This document shows, piece after piece, positions 53,135-63,250 of a stretch of DNA of 63,250 nucleotides. The position numbers and the translations under genes are program-made. Every line of letters starts with the position of its first letter. Within the stretch, counting starts at the first letter, position 1. A model generated the notes under the pieces. The model was given only the letters and a program-made list of their open reading frames with translations. It made no database searches and was not told where the DNA came from. The stretch comes from Magnetococcales bacterium DCbin4 (GTDB lineage: Bacteria > Pseudomonadota > Magnetococcia > Magnetococcales > UBA8363): the NCBI GenBank assembly GCA_002753735.1, contig PEAN01000001.1, positions 81,040 through 144,289 of the forward strand, given 5' to 3'.

Positions 53135-53324
53135 GCGTCGTACTCTTTTGGCAGGCATGTGGTTTCAATGAATATTTTCTGACGTTCCAGATTAAAGCAA
53201 ACAACATGCCTGTCTGCTTCGATGTCCGGTTCTTGTCAGGGCCATCGCATTTGAAACGGGCATGGATGAAAAAGTCACTCGGGGGGTGTAGATGTTCGTT
53301 CACCAGCCTGACAAGAGGGTTCTG

Positions 53325-56300
53325 ATGGATGTTTTTGAGTTTCGGAAGTGGCTCGTTTCCGAATACGAGCAATTCTCCCGCAGTTTCAGCAAAATCATGG
53401 CTGAGGACATGCGAAAACATATGGATGCTGAATATCGGGATGGGCACTTCTGGCCCGCTCCGCTGGTTCAGTTGAATCCCAGCTTCGTATCGGGTGGCTG
53501 GATTGATGACTTGGTTTCAGAAGGACTCCTGCATCCCGAGTGCCGAAACATGTTTCGAGTCCAGAAGAGCCCGGGCACAATGGGCTACCCGATCAACGTT
53601 CACCTGCACCAGGAAGAAGCCATACGAATTGCTCAGCGTGGTGAGAGCTACGTCCTGACCACCGGGACCGGATCAGGGAAATCGCTTTCATACTTTATCC
53701 CCATCGTGGACCATGTCCTCCGTCACAAGGTGGGCAAGGAAAAGTCCGGCATTTCCGCTATTGTGGTTTACCCCATGAATGCCCTTTGCAACAGTCAGAT
53801 GGAGGAGTTGGATAAATTCCTCCGGGCTGGATATGACAAGGACCGGGAGCCTGTGACGTTTGCCCGGTACACCGGCCAGGAATCAAAGGAAGAGCGGCAA
53901 AGAATCGCAGAATCTCCACCGGACATTCTTCTTACCAACTACGTCATGCTTGAGCTGATCATGACGCGGCATGATCCTGCCGACCAGGCTGTCATCAGGC
54001 ATGCGGCAGGTTTGCGCTTTCTGGTTCTGGATGAGTTGCATACCTATCGTGGTCGCCAGGGTGCCGATGTGGCCATGCTGGTCAGGCGGGTCCGCGAGCG
54101 GCTCAATGCCAACTTGCTCTGCGTGGGAACTTCCGCCACCATGGCCAGCGAAGGGGCGGTGACGGATCGGAACCGTGTTGTCGCTGAAGTCGCCAGCCGT
54201 TTGTTTGGCTCCAAGGTTCGCCCTGAGAATATTGTTACCGAAACTTTGGAGCGGGCCACGGCTTCGGACGTTACCCCAACCAGGCAGGTGCTTGGAAAAG
54301 CGGTAACAGATGGCGTTCCGACGACCGCAGCCCATGAAGACCTCCGCAGCCATCCGGTTGCCATCTGGGTTGAACTCAATCTTGGCCTGGAAAAAGAGGA
54401 TGGACGGCCTGAAGGTAAACTGGTCCGATGCGTCCGTCCCAAAACGCTGCGCCAGGCTGCCGAGTCATTGGCGGATGAGACGGGTCTCCCTGCCGATCAA
54501 TGTGAATCCTATCTCGCTCGTTTCCTCCTGTTGGCATTCCGTACCAAGGATGGAAACGGAAAGCCTCTGTTTGCATTCCGGTTGCACCAGTTCATTGCGG
54601 GTGCGGGGAATCTGTTTTCGACTCTGGAGCCGGCGCATCGCAGATATCTCACCGTCAACGGTCAGCAGTTCAAGCCAGGGGAACGGGACAAGCTTCTTTA
54701 TAACGCAGTGTTTTGCCGGGAATGTGGCCAGGAGTATTTCCCCGTTTGGGCAACGTTGGAAAACAGGCGGCCCATGGCGATTTCGCCTCGGGAATTGTCA
54801 GGACGTTCCAATGAGGGGGATGACGTTCAGTTCGGTTTCTACATGCCAGATCCTGAGGGACAATTCGACCCTTCCGCTTTTGAGGATCACTTTCCTGAAG
54901 AATGGTTGGACTTTGATCATGGAGATGCACGCCTGAAACCCTACTATGGACGCTACAGACCCACCCTGCTCAAGGTCAACACCAGGGGCGAGTCCAGCAC
55001 GGAAGGGATGCCGGGGTGGTATATTCCGGGATCTTTTCGTTTTTGTCTTCACCCGGAATGCGGTGTCAGCTATGACGGCAGCGTTCGCAGTGATTTGACC
55101 AAACTGTCCTCCTTGAGCAGTGAGGGGCGCAGTTCCGCCACGACCATGCTCACACTGGTCTCCCTGCGCTACCTGTTGGGAGCGGAGGGTTTGGGAAAGG
55201 AAGCCAGAAAGCTGCTTGGTTTCAGTGACAACAGGCAGGATGCCGCGCTTCAGGCGGGTCATTTCAACGATTTCATCCAAATCCTTCTGTTGCGCGGTGC
55301 CCTGCTCGCCGCGATCCGCAATGAGCCGGAAGGGATCTTGCGAGATGATACCCTGACCCAGAGGGTAGTCCTGTACCTGCGCCTGGAGGCTGGAGATTTT
55401 TCATCCAATCCCGAGGTCAAGGGGGCCAAAGCCTTCAATATTGAGAAAACACTTCGCGAGGTTGTCGGGTACCGCTTGTACCATGATCTCCGACGTGGAT
55501 GGCGAATCACCAACCCTGATCTGGAACAGCTACGCCTGCTCAAAATCCACTATCAGTCGCTTCAGGAGTGCGCAGGCGATCAGGGCGAATGGTCCCGGTG
55601 CCACCCTTTGCTGGCTCATGCGACTGCTGAACTGCGTCAATCCCTGGCGCAGGAACTGCTCGACACCATGCGCCGGGGGTTGGCCATCAGGACCCTTTAC
55701 CTGGACCCGCATTATCTTGAGCAGGTCAGGAACCGCAGCTTTTCAGACCTCAAGGAGCCTTGGGGGCTTTCCGAAGATGAACGCCCTGTCACGGCTTCCG
55801 TCATGATTCCAAGGCCAAAGAAACAAACGAGTCGTTATGATTTTCCGACGGTTCATATTTCCTATCGGTCACGGTTTGGTTCCCGATTGAAAAGCCAGGC
55901 CACTTGGGGATTTGGAAATTCCCACTTCCCGAAAAGGTTTGATGAAAACCTCTACAACGAGCTGGTTGATGGCATGCTTCGAGTGTTGGAGGTCTATGGA
56001 CTGGTCGAGCCGGTTGCGTTGAGCCATGATGACCGGGGCTATCGTGTGGGGGCGAGCGTTCTCGAATGGTCATTGAATCCAACCCCCGGGGAATCCCCGT
56101 CTTCAAAGGGGTTCAAGGAGACCGATAACGCATTTTTTCGCACACTCTACCGCAACGTTGCGGGTCAATTGCAAGACGGGGATCGTTTCCTCCACCAGCT
56201 TGAAGCGCGTGAGCATACCGCCCAGGTGGACGGCAGCACCCGTGAAGAGCGTGAAAATTCCTTCCGCTCCGCCAGGTTGCCAGTTCTGTTCTGTTCCCCG

Positions 56301-58559
56301 ACCATGGAACTCGGGGTGGATATTTCCTCCCTGAACACCGTCTTCATGCGCAATGCCCCGCCAACGCCTGCGAACTATGCCCAGCGCAGTGGTCGGGCGG
56401 GACGCAGTGGGCAACCGGCCCTGGTGATAACCTACTGCGCGGCGCGTTCCCCACACGATCAATATTTCTTTGCAGATCCCACCCGCATGGTCGCGGGCAG
56501 CGTCAACCCTCCCATGATCGATCTGGCCAACGAGGAGTTGATCAAAAGCCACCTGCATTCGGTTTGGCTTGCGGAAACGGGACAGAAACTGGGAACTTCG
56601 GTCAAGGACGTACTGGACCTGGAGAAACCGGATACCTTGCCGGTACGCGACGACCTGGCGACCTTCATGAATCGTCCCGCTGTTCGCGAACGCACGGACA
56701 AACGGGCGCTCGCCATTCTGGCCATGGTTGAAAATGAGCTGACCCGGGAGGTCGCTCCATGGTACGGACCGGAATGGCGGAACAATGTGGTTCGGGCCTC
56801 TTTCCAACAGTTCAACCAGGGGTTCGAACGCTGGCGTTCCCTGTACCGGGCGACGGCCAGGCAAATGGAGAAAAACCACGCTGTCCAGATGAATGCGGCA
56901 GCCACGGAAAAAGACCGCAAGGAGGCCAAACAGCGCTATGATGAAGCCCGGATCCAGCAGGAGTTGTTGTTGGATTCCAAGACCACCATGAATTCCGATT
57001 TCTACACCTACCGGTTTCTGGCCAATCAAGGATTTCTTCCCGGTTACAACTTTCCCCGCCTCCCCTTGATGGCGTTCATCCCTGGTCGCAAGGAAAAGGT
57101 GGGGAGGGACACCTTCCTCAGTCGTCCGCGTTTTTTGGGGCTGTCCGAATTCGGGCCGCAATCCATCATCTACCATGAGGGGAGCACCTATCGCGTGCGC
57201 AAGGTCATCCTTGGCATCAAGGATGAGGAGAGCGTCTCCACGTCGGCCACGCTTCCGGTGCAAACCGCCCGTCTCTGCCCGGCCTGTGGTTATGGGCATT
57301 TCGGGGACCAGAAGGAGTTTGATCTGTGTGTCAATTGCGTCGCCCCTCTGGGTGGTGGGCGCAATCTCATGAAACTCTACCGTATCGAGCAGGTCAGCAC
57401 CCGACGGGCCACGCGCATCACCTCCGACGAGGAAGAGCGTCAACGCCAGGGGTATGAAACCGTCACCACCTTTCGCTATGCGGAAGAAAATGGCCGACCC
57501 CGATTCGCTTCACTGAACATTTCGGAGGGTGAGGAGCTTTTGCTGGAACTCCGTTATGGACCGGCGGCCACCTTGTGGCGGATCAACCTGGGATGGCGGC
57601 GCCGGAAGGAAAAGTCCATTTTCGGTTTCAACGTTGACGCAACCAGCGGCGTTTGGTCAAAAGATGAGCAAGCCCCCGAGGATGTTACCGATTCCCTGGA
57701 ACGGGCGAAATCGGTTCAACGCATCATTCCCTTTGTGGAAGATCGCCGCAACATCATGATCCTGCAACCCAAGGAAATGATGGACGATGCGACGATGGCC
57801 ACGTTGCAGTACGCCTTCAAACGGGGAATCGAGGCGACCTTCCAGTTGGAAGGGAGTGAATTGGCGGCTGAACCCATGCCGGGATGGGGTCGCCGCAATG
57901 CCGTGCTGTATTACGAGTCCGCCGAAGGGGGGGCCGGTGTCCTGACTCGTCTGGTCACGGACCCGGAGGCCGTTCGCAAGGTGGCCCGGAATGCGTTGGC
58001 GATTCTTCATTTCCGAACCGGGTCAGGGGCGTGGCGGGACCACGGCGACCTGACGGATACCAACGAACATTGCGAGGCCGGTTGTTACCGATGCCTGCTC
58101 AGCTATTATAACCAACCTGAACATGCCCTCATTGACCGCAAAAATCCCACTGTATTGGATTTTCTCTGCCGTTTGACCCGATCCTGGTCGGAGAAGGAGC
58201 AGTCCGGGCAGTCCATGGGGGATCTTTTACGGTCACTCTTGAACGCCTCGGTTTCTTCGTTGGAGAAGGCATGGCTGTTGTATCTGAGAGATCACGGGCA
58301 CAATCTTCCGGACCGCGCCCAACCCTTGCTCACTGATGTCAATACCCGGGCCGATTTTGGTTACTCGGAAAAGCAGGCCCTCATCTACATCGACGGTCCG
58401 CACCACGAAGGTAACGTCCAGAGACGGCTTGATGACCGGATCACCCGGAACCTTCAGGACGCTGGGTTGACCGTCGTTCGTTTTCCCAAAGAGCCGTCGG
58501 CCTGGTCCGCGATCATTCAGGCCCATGGCTTCATTTTTGGACGGGGAAACAAGCAATGA
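53325..58559 (+). CDS. Giant DEAD/DEAH helicase with DUF1998 and C-terminal nuclease-like domain
   Basis: Protein of 1744 residues. Helicase part: Walker A TTGTGSGKS (about 111), box II VLDELH (about 236), motif III GTSATM, motif VI RSGRAGRSGQ (about 1024). A cysteine cluster CPACGYG...CVNC lies at about 1318-1339. A DUF1998-like part follows, with YESAEGGAGVLTRLV and CEAGCYRCLLSYYN (about 1583). The last 80 residues (RADFGYSEKQALIYIDGP, then RRLDDRITRNLQDAGL) look like a Vsr/DUF559-type nuclease fold. DISARM DrmA and DrmB carry helicase and DUF1998 separately; here they are one chain. ATG 53325 (MDVFEFRKW) is preferred to 53292. Its stop overlaps the SNF2 gene by 4 bases. Confidence 0.85.
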   Translation: MDVFEFRKWLVSEYEQFSRSFSKIMAEDMRKHMDAEYRDGHFWPAPLVQLNPSFVSGGWIDDLVSEGLLHPECRNMFRVQKSPGTMGYPINVHLHQEEAIRIAQRGESYVLTTGTGSGKSLSYFIPIVDHVLRHKVGKEKSGISAIVVYPMNALCNSQMEELDKFLRAGYDKDREPVTFARYTGQESKEERQRIAESPPDILLTNYVMLELIMTRHDPADQAVIRHAAGLRFLVLDELHTYRGRQGADVAMLVRRVRERLNANLLCVGTSATMASEGAVTDRNRVVAEVASRLFGSKVRPENIVTETLERATASDVTPTRQVLGKAVTDGVPTTAAHEDLRSHPVAIWVELNLGLEKEDGRPEGKLVRCVRPKTLRQAAESLADETGLPADQCESYLARFLLLAFRTKDGNGKPLFAFRLHQFIAGAGNLFSTLEPAHRRYLTVNGQQFKPGERDKLLYNAVFCRECGQEYFPVWATLENRRPMAISPRELSGRSNEGDDVQFGFYMPDPEGQFDPSAFEDHFPEEWLDFDHGDARLKPYYGRYRPTLLKVNTRGESSTEGMPGWYIPGSFRFCLHPECGVSYDGSVRSDLTKLSSLSSEGRSSATTMLTLVSLRYLLGAEGLGKEARKLLGFSDNRQDAALQAGHFNDFIQILLLRGALLAAIRNEPEGILRDDTLTQRVVLYLRLEAGDFSSNPEVKGAKAFNIEKTLREVVGYRLYHDLRRGWRITNPDLEQLRLLKIHYQSLQECAGDQGEWSRCHPLLAHATAELRQSLAQELLDTMRRGLAIRTLYLDPHYLEQVRNRSFSDLKEPWGLSEDERPVTASVMIPRPKKQTSRYDFPTVHISYRSRFGSRLKSQATWGFGNSHFPKRFDENLYNELVDGMLRVLEVYGLVEPVALSHDDRGYRVGASVLEWSLNPTPGESPSSKGFKETDNAFFRTLYRNVAGQLQDGDRFLHQLEAREHTAQVDGSTREERENSFRSARLPVLFCSPTMELGVDISSLNTVFMRNAPPTPANYAQRSGRAGRSGQPALVITYCAARSPHDQYFFADPTRMVAGSVNPPMIDLANEELIKSHLHSVWLAETGQKLGTSVKDVLDLEKPDTLPVRDDLATFMNRPAVRERTDKRALAILAMVENELTREVAPWYGPEWRNNVVRASFQQFNQGFERWRSLYRATARQMEKNHAVQMNAAATEKDRKEAKQRYDEARIQQELLLDSKTTMNSDFYTYRFLANQGFLPGYNFPRLPLMAFIPGRKEKVGRDTFLSRPRFLGLSEFGPQSIIYHEGSTYRVRKVILGIKDEESVSTSATLPVQTARLCPACGYGHFGDQKEFDLCVNCVAPLGGGRNLMKLYRIEQVSTRRATRITSDEEERQRQGYETVTTFRYAEENGRPRFASLNISEGEELLLELRYGPAATLWRINLGWRRRKEKSIFGFNVDATSGVWSKDEQAPEDVTDSLERAKSVQRIIPFVEDRRNIMILQPKEMMDDATMATLQYAFKRGIEATFQLEGSELAAEPMPGWGRRNAVLYYESAEGGAGVLTRLVTDPEAVRKVARNALAILHFRTGSGAWRDHGDLTDTNEHCEAGCYRCLLSYYNQPEHALIDRKNPTVLDFLCRLTRSWSEKEQSGQSMGDLLRSLLNASVSSLEKAWLLYLRDHGHNLPDRAQPLLTDVNTRADFGYSEKQALIYIDGPHHEGNVQRRLDDRITRNLQDAGLTVVRFPKEPSAWSAIIQAHGFIFGRGNKQ

Positions 58560-61399
58560 CCGTCACCGAAACATTCCAACCCGGAAGTCTGGTGCGGGCA
58601 CGTGGCCGGGAGTGGGTGGTGCTGGCGGGGCATCGTGACCAGGTTCTCAGGCTTCGCCCCCTGGGGGGGAGTGAGGATGATGCGACAACCATCTATCTCC
58701 CGCTTGAGCCAAGGCCCCCGATCTTGGCCACGTTCAATCTGCCGGATGCTTCCAGGGCGGGCTCACAGACCTCCGCACTCCTGTTGCGGGACGCTCTGCG
58801 TCTCAAACTTCGAGCGGGTGCCGGGCCGTTCCGCAGTTTCGGCAACATGGGTGTCGAACCACGAGCCTATCAGTTGGTGCCGCTGCTCATGGCCTTGCGG
58901 TTGGAGGTTGTCCGCCTGCTCATTGCGGATGATGTGGGCGTTGGCAAGACCATCGAGGCCGGTTTGATCGTCCGGGAACTGCTGGATCGTGGCGAGGTGG
59001 AGCGGATGACGGTGATCTGCCCACCCCACCTGTGTGAACAATGGCAACAGGAGCTGGCATCCAAATTCAACATTCAGGCGGAAGTGGTGCGCACCGGCAC
59101 TGCCGGGCGGTTGGAACGGGGGTTGATGGCTGGCCAATCGATTTTTGAGGTCTATCCCTTCACCATCGTTTCTCTGGACTACATTAAAGCGGATCGGCGT
59201 CGGGACGAGTTTTTACGTGCCTGCCCGGAGCTGGTCATTGTGGAAGAGGCCCATGGTTCGGTGCGCGGCGATGTCGGGGCACGTCATCAGCGTTATCAAC
59301 TTTTGAAAGGGCTGGCTGATGATCCCAGTCGTCACATGCTCTTTCTCACCGCCACGCCCCACAGCGGCGACGAAAATGCGTTTTTTAACCTGCTGGGCCT
59401 GTTGCGACCCGAGTTCAGGCAACTTCAAGGCACTGCTCCCTCAGATCGCAAGGGGTTGAGGGAGGAACTGGCACGGCACTTTGTGCAACGGCGACGACCG
59501 GATATTCGGGAGTGGCGGGACGCCACTGTTTTTCCCGACCGGGAGTCGGCGGAGACCACCTATTCCCTGACCGGTGAATGGAAAAAGTTGTTTGACGATG
59601 TCCTTCAATATGCCCGACAAATGGTCAAGCAGGCCGAAGGATTGAGCATTCTGAAACAACGCATGAGCTGGTGGGCAGCCTTGGCGTTGCTTCGTTGCAT
59701 CAGCAGCAGTCCGGCGGCGGCGGCCCTGGCGTTGCGTACCCGGTTGGAGTCCACCGGGGAAGGGTCCGAGGAGAACCAGATCGCCAATCTGGAAATGCGG
59801 GCGGCCCAAACCGTGTTGGATGGCGATGCGGAAGAAATCTTGAGCCGGGATGAACATGTTCCCGCCGGAACCATCGAGGATCTGGGGGAACTTGGCAGGT
59901 TGATCCAGAGAGCCGGGTCATTGAAAGGACCGAACAATGACCCCAAGTTGTCGGGACTCCTGGCGCAGTTGAGAAAACTGGTGGCGGACGGATTCCAGCC
60001 GGTGATCTTTTGCCGCTATGTCGCCACCGCTCATTATGTGGCGGAGCATCTGCAAACGGCGTTCAGGCGGGAGGGGGTGGAGGTGATCGCCGTTACCGGG
60101 GAACTCACCCCGGAGGAACGGGAGGAGAAGGTCCAAAGTCTCAAAGAGTTCGACAAGCGGTTGTTGGTGGCGACCGATTGCCTCAGCGAGGGGATCAACC
60201 TTCAAAACCTGTTCAACGCCGTGGTGCATTACGACCTGACCTGGAACCCTACCCGCCATGAGCAGCGGGAGGGTCGGGTGGACCGGTTCGGCCAACCCTC
60301 GACCAGGGTGCGGGTGTTGATGTACTACGGGGAGAACAACCCGGTGGATGGCGCAGTGCTTCAGGTGATCCTGCGTAAGGCCGAACGCATTCGCAAGGAG
60401 CTCGGGGTTTCCGTGCCCATGCCCTCGGACAGCAACAAGGTGATGGATGCCATCATGCAGACGGTTTTGCTGAAGGAAGGGGGTCTGGTTCATGGCGGGA
60501 AACAGTTCTCCCTGCAATTTGATGCGTTGGATCAAGAGGTGGAAATGGCCTGGGAGCGCGCCAGGGAAAAAGCCAGACAGAGCCAGACCCTCTTTGCCCA
60601 GCGCCGTTTGAAGCCGGAAGAGGTGCTCCCCGAATGGGAGAAGGCCATCCAGGTGCTGGGTGGTGAAGCCGATGTGGCCCGCTTTGTTCACAGAACGGCG
60701 GAACGTTTAAACGCCCCCCTGAAACCCGTTCGCAATGAGTTCCGCTTTCCCCTTGGGCACCTGCCGCTCCCGTTGCGGGAACGATTGGCTGCGATGGATT
60801 TACAGGACAGCACCCGCATCACCTTCACCCATCCGGCACCCTCCGGCGTGGCGTACATCCACCGCTCCCATCCCTTGGTGGCCGTCCTGGCCGATTATGT
60901 GGCCGAACGCGCCCTGGACGAGGAGGAACCGGAACTGGCGGCCCGTTGCGGGGCCACCTTCACCAAGGAGGTCAAGACCCGTACCACGATTTTTCTGCTC
61001 CGTCTGCGCAGCCAGTTGATCATCGAACGGCGTGAGGGGAACGGCTACGTTCACGCAAAGACGTTGCTTTCCGAGGAATGTCTGGGGGTGGCGGTGGAGG
61101 GTTCCGACGCTCCCGGGATCTTGCCGGAGCAGGATGCCCGCTTCCTCATGCAGTTGGAACCCGCCCGTAACATGGAGCCGGGCCAGCAGGCGCAGATGAT
61201 CGAAACCGCCAAACAGGGGGTGGCGCAGCTGCAACTGGAGTTCAGCCGGATTGCCCGCCAGCGGGCCGATGAACTCCTGGCCGACCACCGCCGGGTGCGG
61301 GAGGCCAGCGATGCCAAGGGGATCCGGTACGATGTCAAACCCTGCCTGCCGGTAGACGTGATCGGTATCTACGTCCTGGCCCCTGCCGTGGCCTTTTGA
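58556..61399 (+). CDS. SNF2-family helicase, DrmD-like
   Basis: Two-lobed SNF2/DEAD-like ATPase of 947 residues. Walker A ADDVGVGKTIEAGLI (about 125), box II VIVEEAH, motif III FLTATPHSG, motifs V-VI ATDCLSEGINLQ and HEQREGRVDRFGQ. The N-terminal RARGREWVVL-type beta domain and long C-terminal region fit the DrmD/RapA-like helicases of DISARM and related islands. Box II reads EEAH rather than DEAH. The ATG overlaps the helicase gene's stop (ATGA), and the stop shares one base with the next start. Confidence 0.85.
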   Translation: MTVTETFQPGSLVRARGREWVVLAGHRDQVLRLRPLGGSEDDATTIYLPLEPRPPILATFNLPDASRAGSQTSALLLRDALRLKLRAGAGPFRSFGNMGVEPRAYQLVPLLMALRLEVVRLLIADDVGVGKTIEAGLIVRELLDRGEVERMTVICPPHLCEQWQQELASKFNIQAEVVRTGTAGRLERGLMAGQSIFEVYPFTIVSLDYIKADRRRDEFLRACPELVIVEEAHGSVRGDVGARHQRYQLLKGLADDPSRHMLFLTATPHSGDENAFFNLLGLLRPEFRQLQGTAPSDRKGLREELARHFVQRRRPDIREWRDATVFPDRESAETTYSLTGEWKKLFDDVLQYARQMVKQAEGLSILKQRMSWWAALALLRCISSSPAAAALALRTRLESTGEGSEENQIANLEMRAAQTVLDGDAEEILSRDEHVPAGTIEDLGELGRLIQRAGSLKGPNNDPKLSGLLAQLRKLVADGFQPVIFCRYVATAHYVAEHLQTAFRREGVEVIAVTGELTPEEREEKVQSLKEFDKRLLVATDCLSEGINLQNLFNAVVHYDLTWNPTRHEQREGRVDRFGQPSTRVRVLMYYGENNPVDGAVLQVILRKAERIRKELGVSVPMPSDSNKVMDAIMQTVLLKEGGLVHGGKQFSLQFDALDQEVEMAWERAREKARQSQTLFAQRRLKPEEVLPEWEKAIQVLGGEADVARFVHRTAERLNAPLKPVRNEFRFPLGHLPLPLRERLAAMDLQDSTRITFTHPAPSGVAYIHRSHPLVAVLADYVAERALDEEEPELAARCGATFTKEVKTRTTIFLLRLRSQLIIERREGNGYVHAKTLLSEECLGVAVEGSDAPGILPEQDARFLMQLEPARNMEPGQQAQMIETAKQGVAQLQLEFSRIARQRADELLADHRRVREASDAKGIRYDVKPCLPVDVIGIYVLAPAVAF

Positions 61400-62352
61400 T
61401 GCGCAACACCATGCCTGGACATACACAACAGGCCGCAGAGATTATTGATATCGAAGGATGGCGTCCAGATGATCAATTCCCCACCTATCCTGAGGGCACC
61501 CGGGAAAAATCCATGTGGATCAGCCCACAGTCGTCCCCTGTTTCGTTTTTGATGGGTGGTCATCGCTATTTATTCAAACATGCCTCACATCGCTATCCAA
61601 CCCAGTTTTGGTGTGAGGTGATCGCCTATCGAATCGGCTGCTTGATGGGAATTCCAGTCCCGCCAGCTTATGCTGCCTGGAAATCCAGCAGCCAACAATC
61701 TGCCGCACTGATTGAATGGTTTTATCGGGCGGATGAGGAGGTGCGCTACGAATCTGGAACCGTTCATATGAAAAGAATGATTCCGGATTTTGATGTCAAA
61801 AAGGGCCGTCAGCACAATATTGAAACCCTCCTGACCATTCTTGCGGGCATCGACGAAAAACTGATTCTGGACATGACGAAAATTCTTGTTTTTGATGCGG
61901 CTATTGGAAACACAGATCGTCACCAGGAAAATTGGGGAATCTTGTGGAGGGGGAATCCACCACGACCGGAACTCGCTCCCGCTTTCGACAATGGTACAAG
62001 TCTTGGACATGAAATCATGGATGACAAGATTCCAGATTTTCTATCAAGTCCAATGAAAATAGCGCACTATATCGACAAGGGACAGCACCATATGCGGCGG
62101 ACATCGACCGGATCCGAAGGTAAGTGCGGCCATTTTGAACTGGTCGCCTGGTTGCTGGATCAATATCCAGAATCGAGGCGGGATCTCTGCCAGTGCCTTG
62201 AATTTGACAGGGACGGCATGAATACTTGGCTGGCTGCATTGCCCAATTTTGCCATTCCTGATGCACCCACGCCGGAGCGGATTCAATTCATCGAACGCCT
62301 TCTGCATTTCCGCATGGAGCGACTGCATGCTGTACTAACTCGCAGGGATTGA
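61399..62352 (+). CDS. HipA-like kinase
   Basis: Protein of 317 residues with a HipA-type kinase core: YLFKHASHRYPTQFWCEVIA near the N-terminus, catalytic loop AAIGNTDRHQENWGIL (about 168-182) and the metal motif PAFDNGTSLG (about 194). HipA toxins phosphorylate a tRNA synthetase; in this shorter subfamily the target is not known. No HipB-type DNA-binding partner is present; the next gene encodes a HIRAN domain. ATG 61399 overlaps the SNF2 stop by one base; ATG 61411 is an alternative. Confidence 0.8.
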   Translation: MRNTMPGHTQQAAEIIDIEGWRPDDQFPTYPEGTREKSMWISPQSSPVSFLMGGHRYLFKHASHRYPTQFWCEVIAYRIGCLMGIPVPPAYAAWKSSSQQSAALIEWFYRADEEVRYESGTVHMKRMIPDFDVKKGRQHNIETLLTILAGIDEKLILDMTKILVFDAAIGNTDRHQENWGILWRGNPPRPELAPAFDNGTSLGHEIMDDKIPDFLSSPMKIAHYIDKGQHHMRRTSTGSEGKCGHFELVAWLLDQYPESRRDLCQCLEFDRDGMNTWLAALPNFAIPDAPTPERIQFIERLLHFRMERLHAVLTRRD

Positions 62353-62356
62353 GGTC

Positions 62357-63082
62357 ATGAACCGCATCATTCGACATATTGTTGAGCCACGACATCTGTT
62401 TCTGGCCTGGCAGGCCCCGGATGGCCATTTATACGGTCGGACTCGGCACAAGGTGGCAGAAATCGTCCCTGACCAGGACGGCACCATCCTTTTCCGTTAT
62501 CTCAAGGGAACAGATGATTTTGAGGCGGCATTGTCCGCTGGTTTTTTGGGATATCCAGCTTTCCCTTTGGAGCAGGAACTTTATACGTCAGGTATCCTGG
62601 AAATTTTCATGCGACGCCTCCCCCCTCGGAAGAGGCGGGATTATCACGATTTTCTGCGCCTGTGGCGGCTTGATCCCGCAACCCGGCTCACCCCACTGGC
62701 ATTGCTGGGTTATGTGGGAGCGCAACTTCCAGGAGATGGTTTTTCTCTGGTTCATCCCTTTGACAATGGGGAACCCCCTTTTGAATTTTTGGAAGAAGTT
62801 GCCGGATTTCGTTATCGCCGGGATGCCAGTCAACTTCTTGCCTTGTTGCAAGAAGGCCAGGAGATTCAACTGCGTGCCGAGCCTGACAACCTCCACGATC
62901 CGCAGGCGATTCGTATTGAATTGCCGGACAATCATCTCATCGGCTATGTGAACAAATTGCACGCCCCCGGACTGCAACGGTGGCTGCAAACCCCCGGGGT
63001 GCGTGGGACCATAGATCGTCTCAATGGCACCCCATCCAGGCCTCTGGTCTATGTGTTTGTCGAAATTGGCACCGCACCATGA
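62357..63082 (+). CDS. HIRAN-domain protein
   Basis: Protein of 241 residues. The C-terminal 95 residues are a HIRAN domain (VAGFRYRRDASQLLALLQEG, EIQLRAEPDNLHDPQAIRIE, LIGYVNKLHAPGLQRWL), a module that in SNF2 enzymes such as HLTF binds DNA ends. The N-terminal 140 residues resemble HipA N-terminal lobes (HLYGRTRHKVAEIVPD, FEAALSAGFLGYPAFPLEQE), so this chain may complete the kinase upstream. GAGG precedes the ATG; 4 bases lie between it and the HipA-like gene. Confidence 0.78.
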   Translation: MNRIIRHIVEPRHLFLAWQAPDGHLYGRTRHKVAEIVPDQDGTILFRYLKGTDDFEAALSAGFLGYPAFPLEQELYTSGILEIFMRRLPPRKRRDYHDFLRLWRLDPATRLTPLALLGYVGAQLPGDGFSLVHPFDNGEPPFEFLEEVAGFRYRRDASQLLALLQEGQEIQLRAEPDNLHDPQAIRIELPDNHLIGYVNKLHAPGLQRWLQTPGVRGTIDRLNGTPSRPLVYVFVEIGTAP

Positions 63083-63250
63083 AAAGAAACCAGAACCACG
63101 GTTTCACCGTTCTCAAGGTCGAAGGCAACATTCTTCCGCCGGAGTTTCTCCAGAAGGTGGCGGCGTTGGCGGCCCCCCGCCAGGCCAATACGGACTACGA
63201 TGTCTCTAAATCTTTCAACATCAAGGATGAGATTGGCCGCTACTGGCGGA
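63079..63250 (+). CDS. Start of a further operon gene, possibly a large DNA methyltransferase (truncated)
   Basis: Only the first 57 codons are in the window: KVEGNILPPEFLQKVAAL then YDVSKSFNIKDEIGRYWR. The pattern LPP-FL-K-A near the start and a W-rich turn recall N-termini of the large adenine methyltransferases found in DISARM-type and type IIG systems; this is only a suggestion. The ATG overlaps the HIRAN stop (ATGA), so it is certainly part of the operon. Confidence 0.55.
   Translation, partial: MKRNQNHGFTVLKVEGNILPPEFLQKVAALAAPRQANTDYDVSKSFNIKDEIGRYWR

Follow-up and report, generated by a model that had tools for sequence, protein, structure and literature searches.

A candidate ARMADA type I operon with swappable toxin–antitoxin pairs at its predicted methyltransferase gene in Magnetococcales

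ARMADA, a relative of DISARM and Druantia, was introduced in a 2025 preprint (Bell et al., PMC12458937). Type I, as defined there, encodes first a YprA-like helicase that has a Vsr-type nuclease fused to it, then a helicase of the BrxHII/RapA kind, and last a PglX-like methyltransferase. Type II protected E. coli without abortive infection, and a rearranged gene order is mentioned for archaea and cyanobacteria (PMC12458937). No experimental test of type I was found in the accessible literature, and the main text of the ARMADA paper makes no mention of HipA, HIRAN or VapC. hipIN modules have been on record since 2021 (Gerdes et al., PMC8262856), their HipN protein combining a HipS-like part with a HIRAN domain, and a diDNase partner of hipIN has been reported in Gram-positives (PMC11706625). 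Toxin genes inside restriction–modification operons have a precedent in PrrC, which acts as a guardian in the EcoprrI type IC locus (PMC12707154). In the openly readable literature that was searched, nothing on point was found for hipIN or VapC inside restriction operons.

The locus described here follows ARMADA type I in its gene order (YprA-like helicase fused to DUF1998 and, at its C-terminus, a putative nuclease; BrxHII-like SNF2 helicase; PglX-like methyltransferase) but differs in carrying toxin–antitoxin cassettes at the junction between the SNF2 and methyltransferase genes (slot 1) and inside the methyltransferase gene itself (slot 2). The pair in slot 1 is built like hipIN, or PDC-M03 in PADLOC, the gene for a short kinase of the HipA type preceding one for a protein that unites a HipS-like part and HIRAN; here, however, it is borne by a defence operon, coupled tightly on both sides and without promoter space of its own. 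PrrC resembles these cassettes as an embedded toxin in a modification-type defence operon, yet it is a single anticodon nuclease tied to EcoprrI, whereas here unrelated two-gene modules replace one another. The view of a preliminary description of this DNA that no described system has such content does not survive, given that the core has been named ARMADA type I (PMC12458937) and the pair is hipIN (PMC8262856). What appears new, in that the papers searched do not describe it, is the swapping of unrelated toxin–antitoxin cassettes at and inside the ARMADA I methyltransferase gene.

Layout of the locus and its helicase–nuclease core

The window, by which is meant the whole stretch of 63,250 nucleotides that was analysed, is a section of a 158-kb contig from the genome of a magnetotactic-type bacterium of the Magnetococcales. 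Five ORFs that overlap or almost abut were found where the preliminary description had placed them (Table 1), forming one tight same-strand run flanked by murG and recX–alaS. Genes A and B, like D and E, share an ATGA overlap. Gene C may begin at the ATG that lies within the stop of gene B (TGATG) or at 61411, and an alternative in-frame ATG at 53292 would extend the product of gene A to 1755 aa. The end of the window coincides with a 10-N scaffold gap inside the methyltransferase gene (L002 10290-10299); in reality the gap seems to span about 11 bases, a length that would bring the frame into agreement with that of the relative G001. Once the contig was extended beyond it, the right-hand gene, for which a DNA methyltransferase had been suspected, proved to match Eco57I (2.1e-19) and DrmMI (4.4e-76) behind the gap, and is predicted to encode an N6-adenine methyltransferase with its SAM-binding motif CDPACGSGHF and its NPPW motif GNPPWE intact.

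Table 1. Positions of the genes and of the parts of gene E
Feature	Position	Strand	Basis
Gene A, YprA/DruE-like helicase, 1744 aa, putative ARMADA I YprA subunit	53325..58559	+	domain and homology searches
Gene B, BrxHII/RapA/DrmD-like SNF2 helicase, 947 aa, putative second gene of ARMADA I	58556..61399	+	profile matches
Gene C, predicted HipI-type kinase toxin (HipA_C; PADLOC PDC-M03A), slot 1 cassette	61399..62352	+	
Gene D, HipN-type putative antitoxin, HipS-like N-terminal domain plus HIRAN (PADLOC PDC-M03B)	62357..63082	+	
Gene E, 5' end of predicted N6-adenine methyltransferase (DrmMI/PglX-like)	63079..63250 (continues past window)	+	
Gene E, catalytic part	63261-66089 (extended window numbering)		
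DUF2281–VapC pair within gene E	66122-66783 (extended window numbering)		
Gene E, presumed target-recognition part	66780-68276 (extended window numbering)		

The domain calls made earlier from the letters were borne out, with DEAD, Helicase_C and MZB/DUF1998 found in A, SNF2 in B, HipA_C in C and HIRAN in D, as was the arrangement of helicase, DUF1998 and a nuclease-like domain in one chain beside a separate SNF2 protein. In gene A the DEAD (residues 95-275), Helicase_C (958-1029) and MZB/DUF1998 (1494-1591) domains all lie in one 1744-aa ORF whose C-terminus carries, at about 1660-1725, a putative DUF559/Vsr-like nuclease domain. The window copy of this domain scores 19.3 bits against a cut-off of 20.6, while homologues match DUF559 there in 11/14 cases and Vsr in 2/14; a motif, ADFGY...YIDGPHHE, is conserved, and the AlphaFold model of the C-terminus has poor confidence (pLDDT 56). 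Gene A matches YprA (6znp) at 6e-22, its top PADLOC match is DruE at 6.7e-93, and among solved proteins the nearest to it in sequence is a DEAD/DEAH helicase of 2108 aa (9tu7). Gene B carries SNF2-type domains by domain search and matches the PADLOC profiles for BrxHII (6.6e-53), BrxHI/BrxHII (1.8e-64) and DrmD (1.2e-90).

From domain content and gene order, the A-B-E core is assigned to ARMADA type I. A YprA-family helicase and DUF1998 are united in a single chain, a BrxHII/RapA-like SNF2 helicase is encoded by the second gene, and a PglX-like N6 methyltransferase by the third, the last being split by a toxin–antitoxin pair. The GajB-like/RelE helicase that marks type II was sought downstream, and no ORF of such size occurs up to alaS. 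The earlier label of a DISARM-related operon holds as far as relatedness goes, for DUF1998, an SNF2 helicase and an N6 methyltransferase are likewise found in DISARM class 1, but DISARM itself was rejected: helicase and DUF1998 are fused in one ORF where DrmA and DrmB would be separate genes, Pfam scans gave no PLD nuclease DrmC, and the NCBIfam scores lie below cut-off for DrmD (348 bits of 610, gene B) and reach only 20.4 of 950 bits for DrmA. Druantia, to which the DruE match of gene A points, was also rejected, since type III consists of DruE and DruH only, a DruH match is absent, and SNF2 and methyltransferase genes are present. A reading of gene B as DpdE (PADLOC 8.8e-208) was set aside because NCBIfam DpdE gave only 184 of 500 bits.

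The A-B-E genes occur also in Acetobacteraceae, rhizobia, Sphingomonas, Acidithiobacillus, Acinetobacter, Campylobacterota, Deinococcus, Thermus, Chloroflexota, cyanobacteria and actinomycetes. Their order is kept in genomes and plasmids of several phyla and is rearranged in cyanobacteria and Thermus; among phage records no relatives of gene B were found. This recurrence of the core in the same order across phyla, together with the pairing of C and D in 79/80 loci described below, is more than chance would produce. The ARMADA methyltransferase of Deinococcus radiodurans MP1 (L049 14829-19774), which is that of the type strain, is broken into ORFs with an IS630-type insertion (ISDra3) in its C-terminal part, and that of the Magnetococcales genome G037 (L153 2086-6702) seems frameshifted, whether in reality or through an assembly error.

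The hipIN pair and its wider distribution

Gene C encodes 314-318 aa, matches HipA_C at 6.9e-13 and, when nine relatives are compared, shows an invariant DRH..N motif and a conserved FDNG region, which are the features of a short HipI kinase with core kinase motifs. Gene D, directly downstream, contains HIRAN by Pfam; its predicted structure (pLDDT 92.7) matches both HipS of HipBST (8ezr, probability 1.00, E 4e-3) and the DNA-binding HIRAN domain of HLTF, in keeping with HipN as a HipS-like plus HIRAN protein. Both genes match the PADLOC candidate system PDC-M03A/B. By sequence, C and D are a separate and known toxin–antitoxin module, hipIN, in which D would neutralise C.

A scan of about 85,000 genomes furnished the best 80 HipI relatives for a survey of this module. 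Gene D follows immediately after gene C in 79/80 of these loci, all from other genomes; 77 hold hipIN without ARMADA, 2 hold it with ARMADA (both Magnetococcales) and 1 is without hipN. The diDNase partner is absent from all 80, and no HipI relative was found on viral contigs. In the 73 loci with enough upstream sequence, hipIN stands directly behind a type I HsdS gene seven times and behind an MmeI-type gene and a type ISP enzyme once each. In Rhodococcus it lies between hsdS and hsdM. Other pairs sit tightly behind ordinary genes, which by Pfam include metH, rnr and valS. hipIN also occurs on its own in G026, G037 and G017, the G037 copy lying behind a recF-like gene.

Several further arrangements came to light. 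In Escherichia phage 899, which is P2-like (L142 5428-7632), a 3'-5' exonuclease gene precedes one for a 520-aa protein whose start matches HipI, and phrog_26212 is a HipI–HipN fusion, like HipL. In two type I restriction loci (L081 4763-10434 and L089 1897-7562) hsdR and hsdM are separated by a MazE-like/PIN pair, and hsdS is preceded by a DUF559-like gene and followed by hipIN; judged by gene content, these are the same kind of cassette around the methyltransferase of another system.

Cassette exchange at and inside the methyltransferase gene

The ARMADA I core is present in 8/48 Magnetococcales genomes, and what stands between its SNF2 and methyltransferase genes varies. Slot 1 holds hipIN in the window, G040 and G010 (3/8, in three Magnetococcales genera), Phd–VapC in G001 and G037 (2/8), and toxin–antitoxin fragments, namely a DUF2281 gene together with a PIN pair in inverted orientation, in G021 (1/8); it is empty in G008 and G018 (2/8). 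At least six changes of content are required on the tree of A plus B, with G021 not scored, and sister loci differ, as in G037 versus G040 or the window versus G001 and G008, with proteins that share about 88-90% identity. The slot 1 cassettes are exchangeable, and we judge the operon to be an ARMADA I locus with swappable toxin–antitoxin pairs. That the HipA/HIRAN pair was inserted, as had been proposed, is recorded by two direct marks. Behind hipIN in G010, at the hipN end and before the methyltransferase gene, the 3' end of gene B is repeated over 65 nt (the alignment scores 90, the highest of 200 shuffles only 24), and in the window the third-position GC content is 0.50 for C and 0.52 for D compared with 0.65-0.72 for A and B.

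Toxin–antitoxin pairs or fragments were found at 7/35 B–E junctions as against 0/29 A–B junctions (Fisher p 0.013), and in slot 1 of 6/8 Magnetococcales loci as against 1/27 others (p 1e-4), both p-values being optimistic because the tests take related loci as independent. By hand count the 27 junctions outside the order contain one such pair (Phd–VapC in Acidithiobacillus caldus) and two genes for 23S-IVP four-helix proteins, the latter in Chlorohelix and Dolichospermum (23S-rRNA-IVP, four-helix bundle; L171 11948-12313 and L179 12061-12459). It had been reasoned that a pair occurring only here and randomly elsewhere would count against a link to the operon. The pair does occur mostly elsewhere, but its placement here is not random, since toxin–antitoxin pairs have filled the same junction repeatedly. 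No promoter would fit in front of hipIN in the window, but in G001 the Phd–VapC cassette shows a promoter-like site just behind gene B.

A serious alternative, to which a substantial though lesser share of belief is given, is that hipIN and VapBC are selfish mobile modules which land in many operons and stabilise the host DNA around them, with no mechanistic link to ARMADA. The same module is found also behind housekeeping and recF-like genes, which is what makes this alternative serious; the great majority of hipIN loci are without ARMADA, the hipIN tree intermixes ARMADA-borne and free copies so that the former are not one clade, and a single slot has been filled by different, unrelated pairs. 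Against this stand the clustering of pairs at the methyltransferase rather than at the A–B junction and the repeated occurrence of hipIN next to methyltransferase or specificity genes of type I, type ISP and MmeI type (about 9/73), although these counts are small and confounded by defence islands.

Gene E is interrupted by a second cassette, a DUF2281–PIN pair about 2.9 kb past the end of the window. The cut lies at an identical site in the window genome, G001 and G008, with the catalytic part on one side and, on the other, a C-terminal part that presumably recognises the target, while gene E is continuous at this slot in G018, G040 and most others. Slot 2 is filled by DUF2281–VapC in the window genome and G001, and by a different DUF2281–PIN pair in G008. 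Between the window genome and G001 the slot 2 pair has a dS of 0.08-0.15 as compared with 0.54-0.61 for the flanking halves, so that exchange of the cassette probably postdates the divergence of the sequence around it. Both halves of gene E are under purifying selection (dN/dS 0.123 and 0.172, beside 0.118 for A and 0.114 for B).

That the insertion of VapBC simply broke the methyltransferase and left the operon a remnant is improbable. The enzyme is indeed divided into two ORFs with a toxin–antitoxin pair between them, and broken genes are seen in other ARMADA loci (Deinococcus radiodurans, Acinetobacter soli), but there are no stops elsewhere, the two motifs are intact, in the window genome and G001 the stop of the toxin gene overlaps the new start of the second half (ATGA), and the split is shared by three genomes. 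The low dN/dS of both halves together with the recent exchange of the cassette speaks against decay and argues for a working methyltransferase of two chains. Least probable of all is the conserved five-gene system that the preliminary description had in mind, with the HipA/HIRAN pair as a dedicated regulatory or abortive subunit, for despite the tight overlaps throughout and a five-gene order shared by the window, G040 and G010, close relatives with the same core have Phd–VapC or nothing at that place, hipIN stands alone in three genomes, its third-position GC content is unlike that of the core, and the swapping of cassettes had already weakened the idea.

A proposed safeguard of self-marking

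The reading preferred here, held with some confidence but well short of certainty, is that the operon is an antiviral, restriction-like ARMADA I system with exchangeable toxin–antitoxin cassettes beside and inside its methyltransferase gene. Its gene content, order, overlaps, homologies, cassette swapping, insertion footprint and purifying selection on both methyltransferase halves are observed, and the antiviral activity of this copy, toxicity, neutralisation, triggering and the function of the split methyltransferase are what we infer. The methyltransferase would mark host DNA, leaving unmarked phage DNA to be attacked by the Vsr-like nuclease together with both helicases, the core thereby providing, to judge from ARMADA II and the wider family, a modification-guided and non-abortive defence. 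HipN would hold the HipI kinase inactive. With no spacer for a promoter and with an end that overlaps the methyltransferase start, the window hipIN probably depends for its expression on the ARMADA transcript alone; were that transcript lost or silenced by a phage, the supply of antitoxin would fail before that of the toxin, and the freed HipI would phosphorylate a host target and arrest translation. The VapBC pair may act alike from within the methyltransferase gene, the split enzyme then working as two chains.

An alternative trigger can be imagined in which DNA ends draw off the HIRAN domain, which in HLTF binds 3' DNA ends. As DruE loads on 3' single-stranded DNA (PMC13192584) and HIRAN domains bind DNA ends (PMC8262856), HipN could, as a hypothesis only, sense ends produced or exposed during restriction. 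Ordinary addiction, with the antitoxin supply bound to the ARMADA transcript, is the plainer alternative. A bolder and more doubtful extension of the preferred reading would have the cassettes serve as a working fail-safe in ARMADA I and likewise in some type I restriction loci, a toxin pair standing between the catalytic and target-recognition halves of a bipartite methyltransferase, a HIRAN antitoxin reading the 3' ends laid bare as restriction acts or goes wrong, and the cell arresting whenever the helicase–nuclease is overwhelmed or self-marking fails.

The safeguard role of the cassettes is plausible and, because hipIN is also found behind ordinary housekeeping genes, unproven. Given those positions, its presence here need not be functional; the non-abortive action of ARMADA II and the scarcity of slot 1 pairs outside Magnetococcales also speak against the preferred reading. 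If the cassettes are functional, they suggest a general design in which a modification-based defence operon is guarded by swappable toxin–antitoxin pairs at its methyltransferase, make it testable how such systems punish the loss or inhibition of self-marking, and offer a role, the sensing of DNA ends, for the unexplained HIRAN domain of hipIN modules; it is in a guardianship of the methyltransferase that their greater interest would lie. If they are hitch-hikers, the locus is still a clear natural record of cassette insertion and swapping at one gene junction, its footprint preserved.

Beyond the methyltransferase gene lies a gene for a 432-aa SMC/LmuB-like ATPase (L002 15319-16617; window numbering 68280-69578), and related 'SMC' genes, often with an HNH endonuclease gene behind them, stand at the corresponding position of rhizobial ARMADA loci (L164-L166). 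Directly next in the Magnetococcales locus are an orphan DUF2281 antitoxin-like gene and an MNT-HEPN pair (L002 16541-17866; window numbering 69502-70827), so that three toxin–antitoxin-like pairs and one orphan precede recX–alaS.
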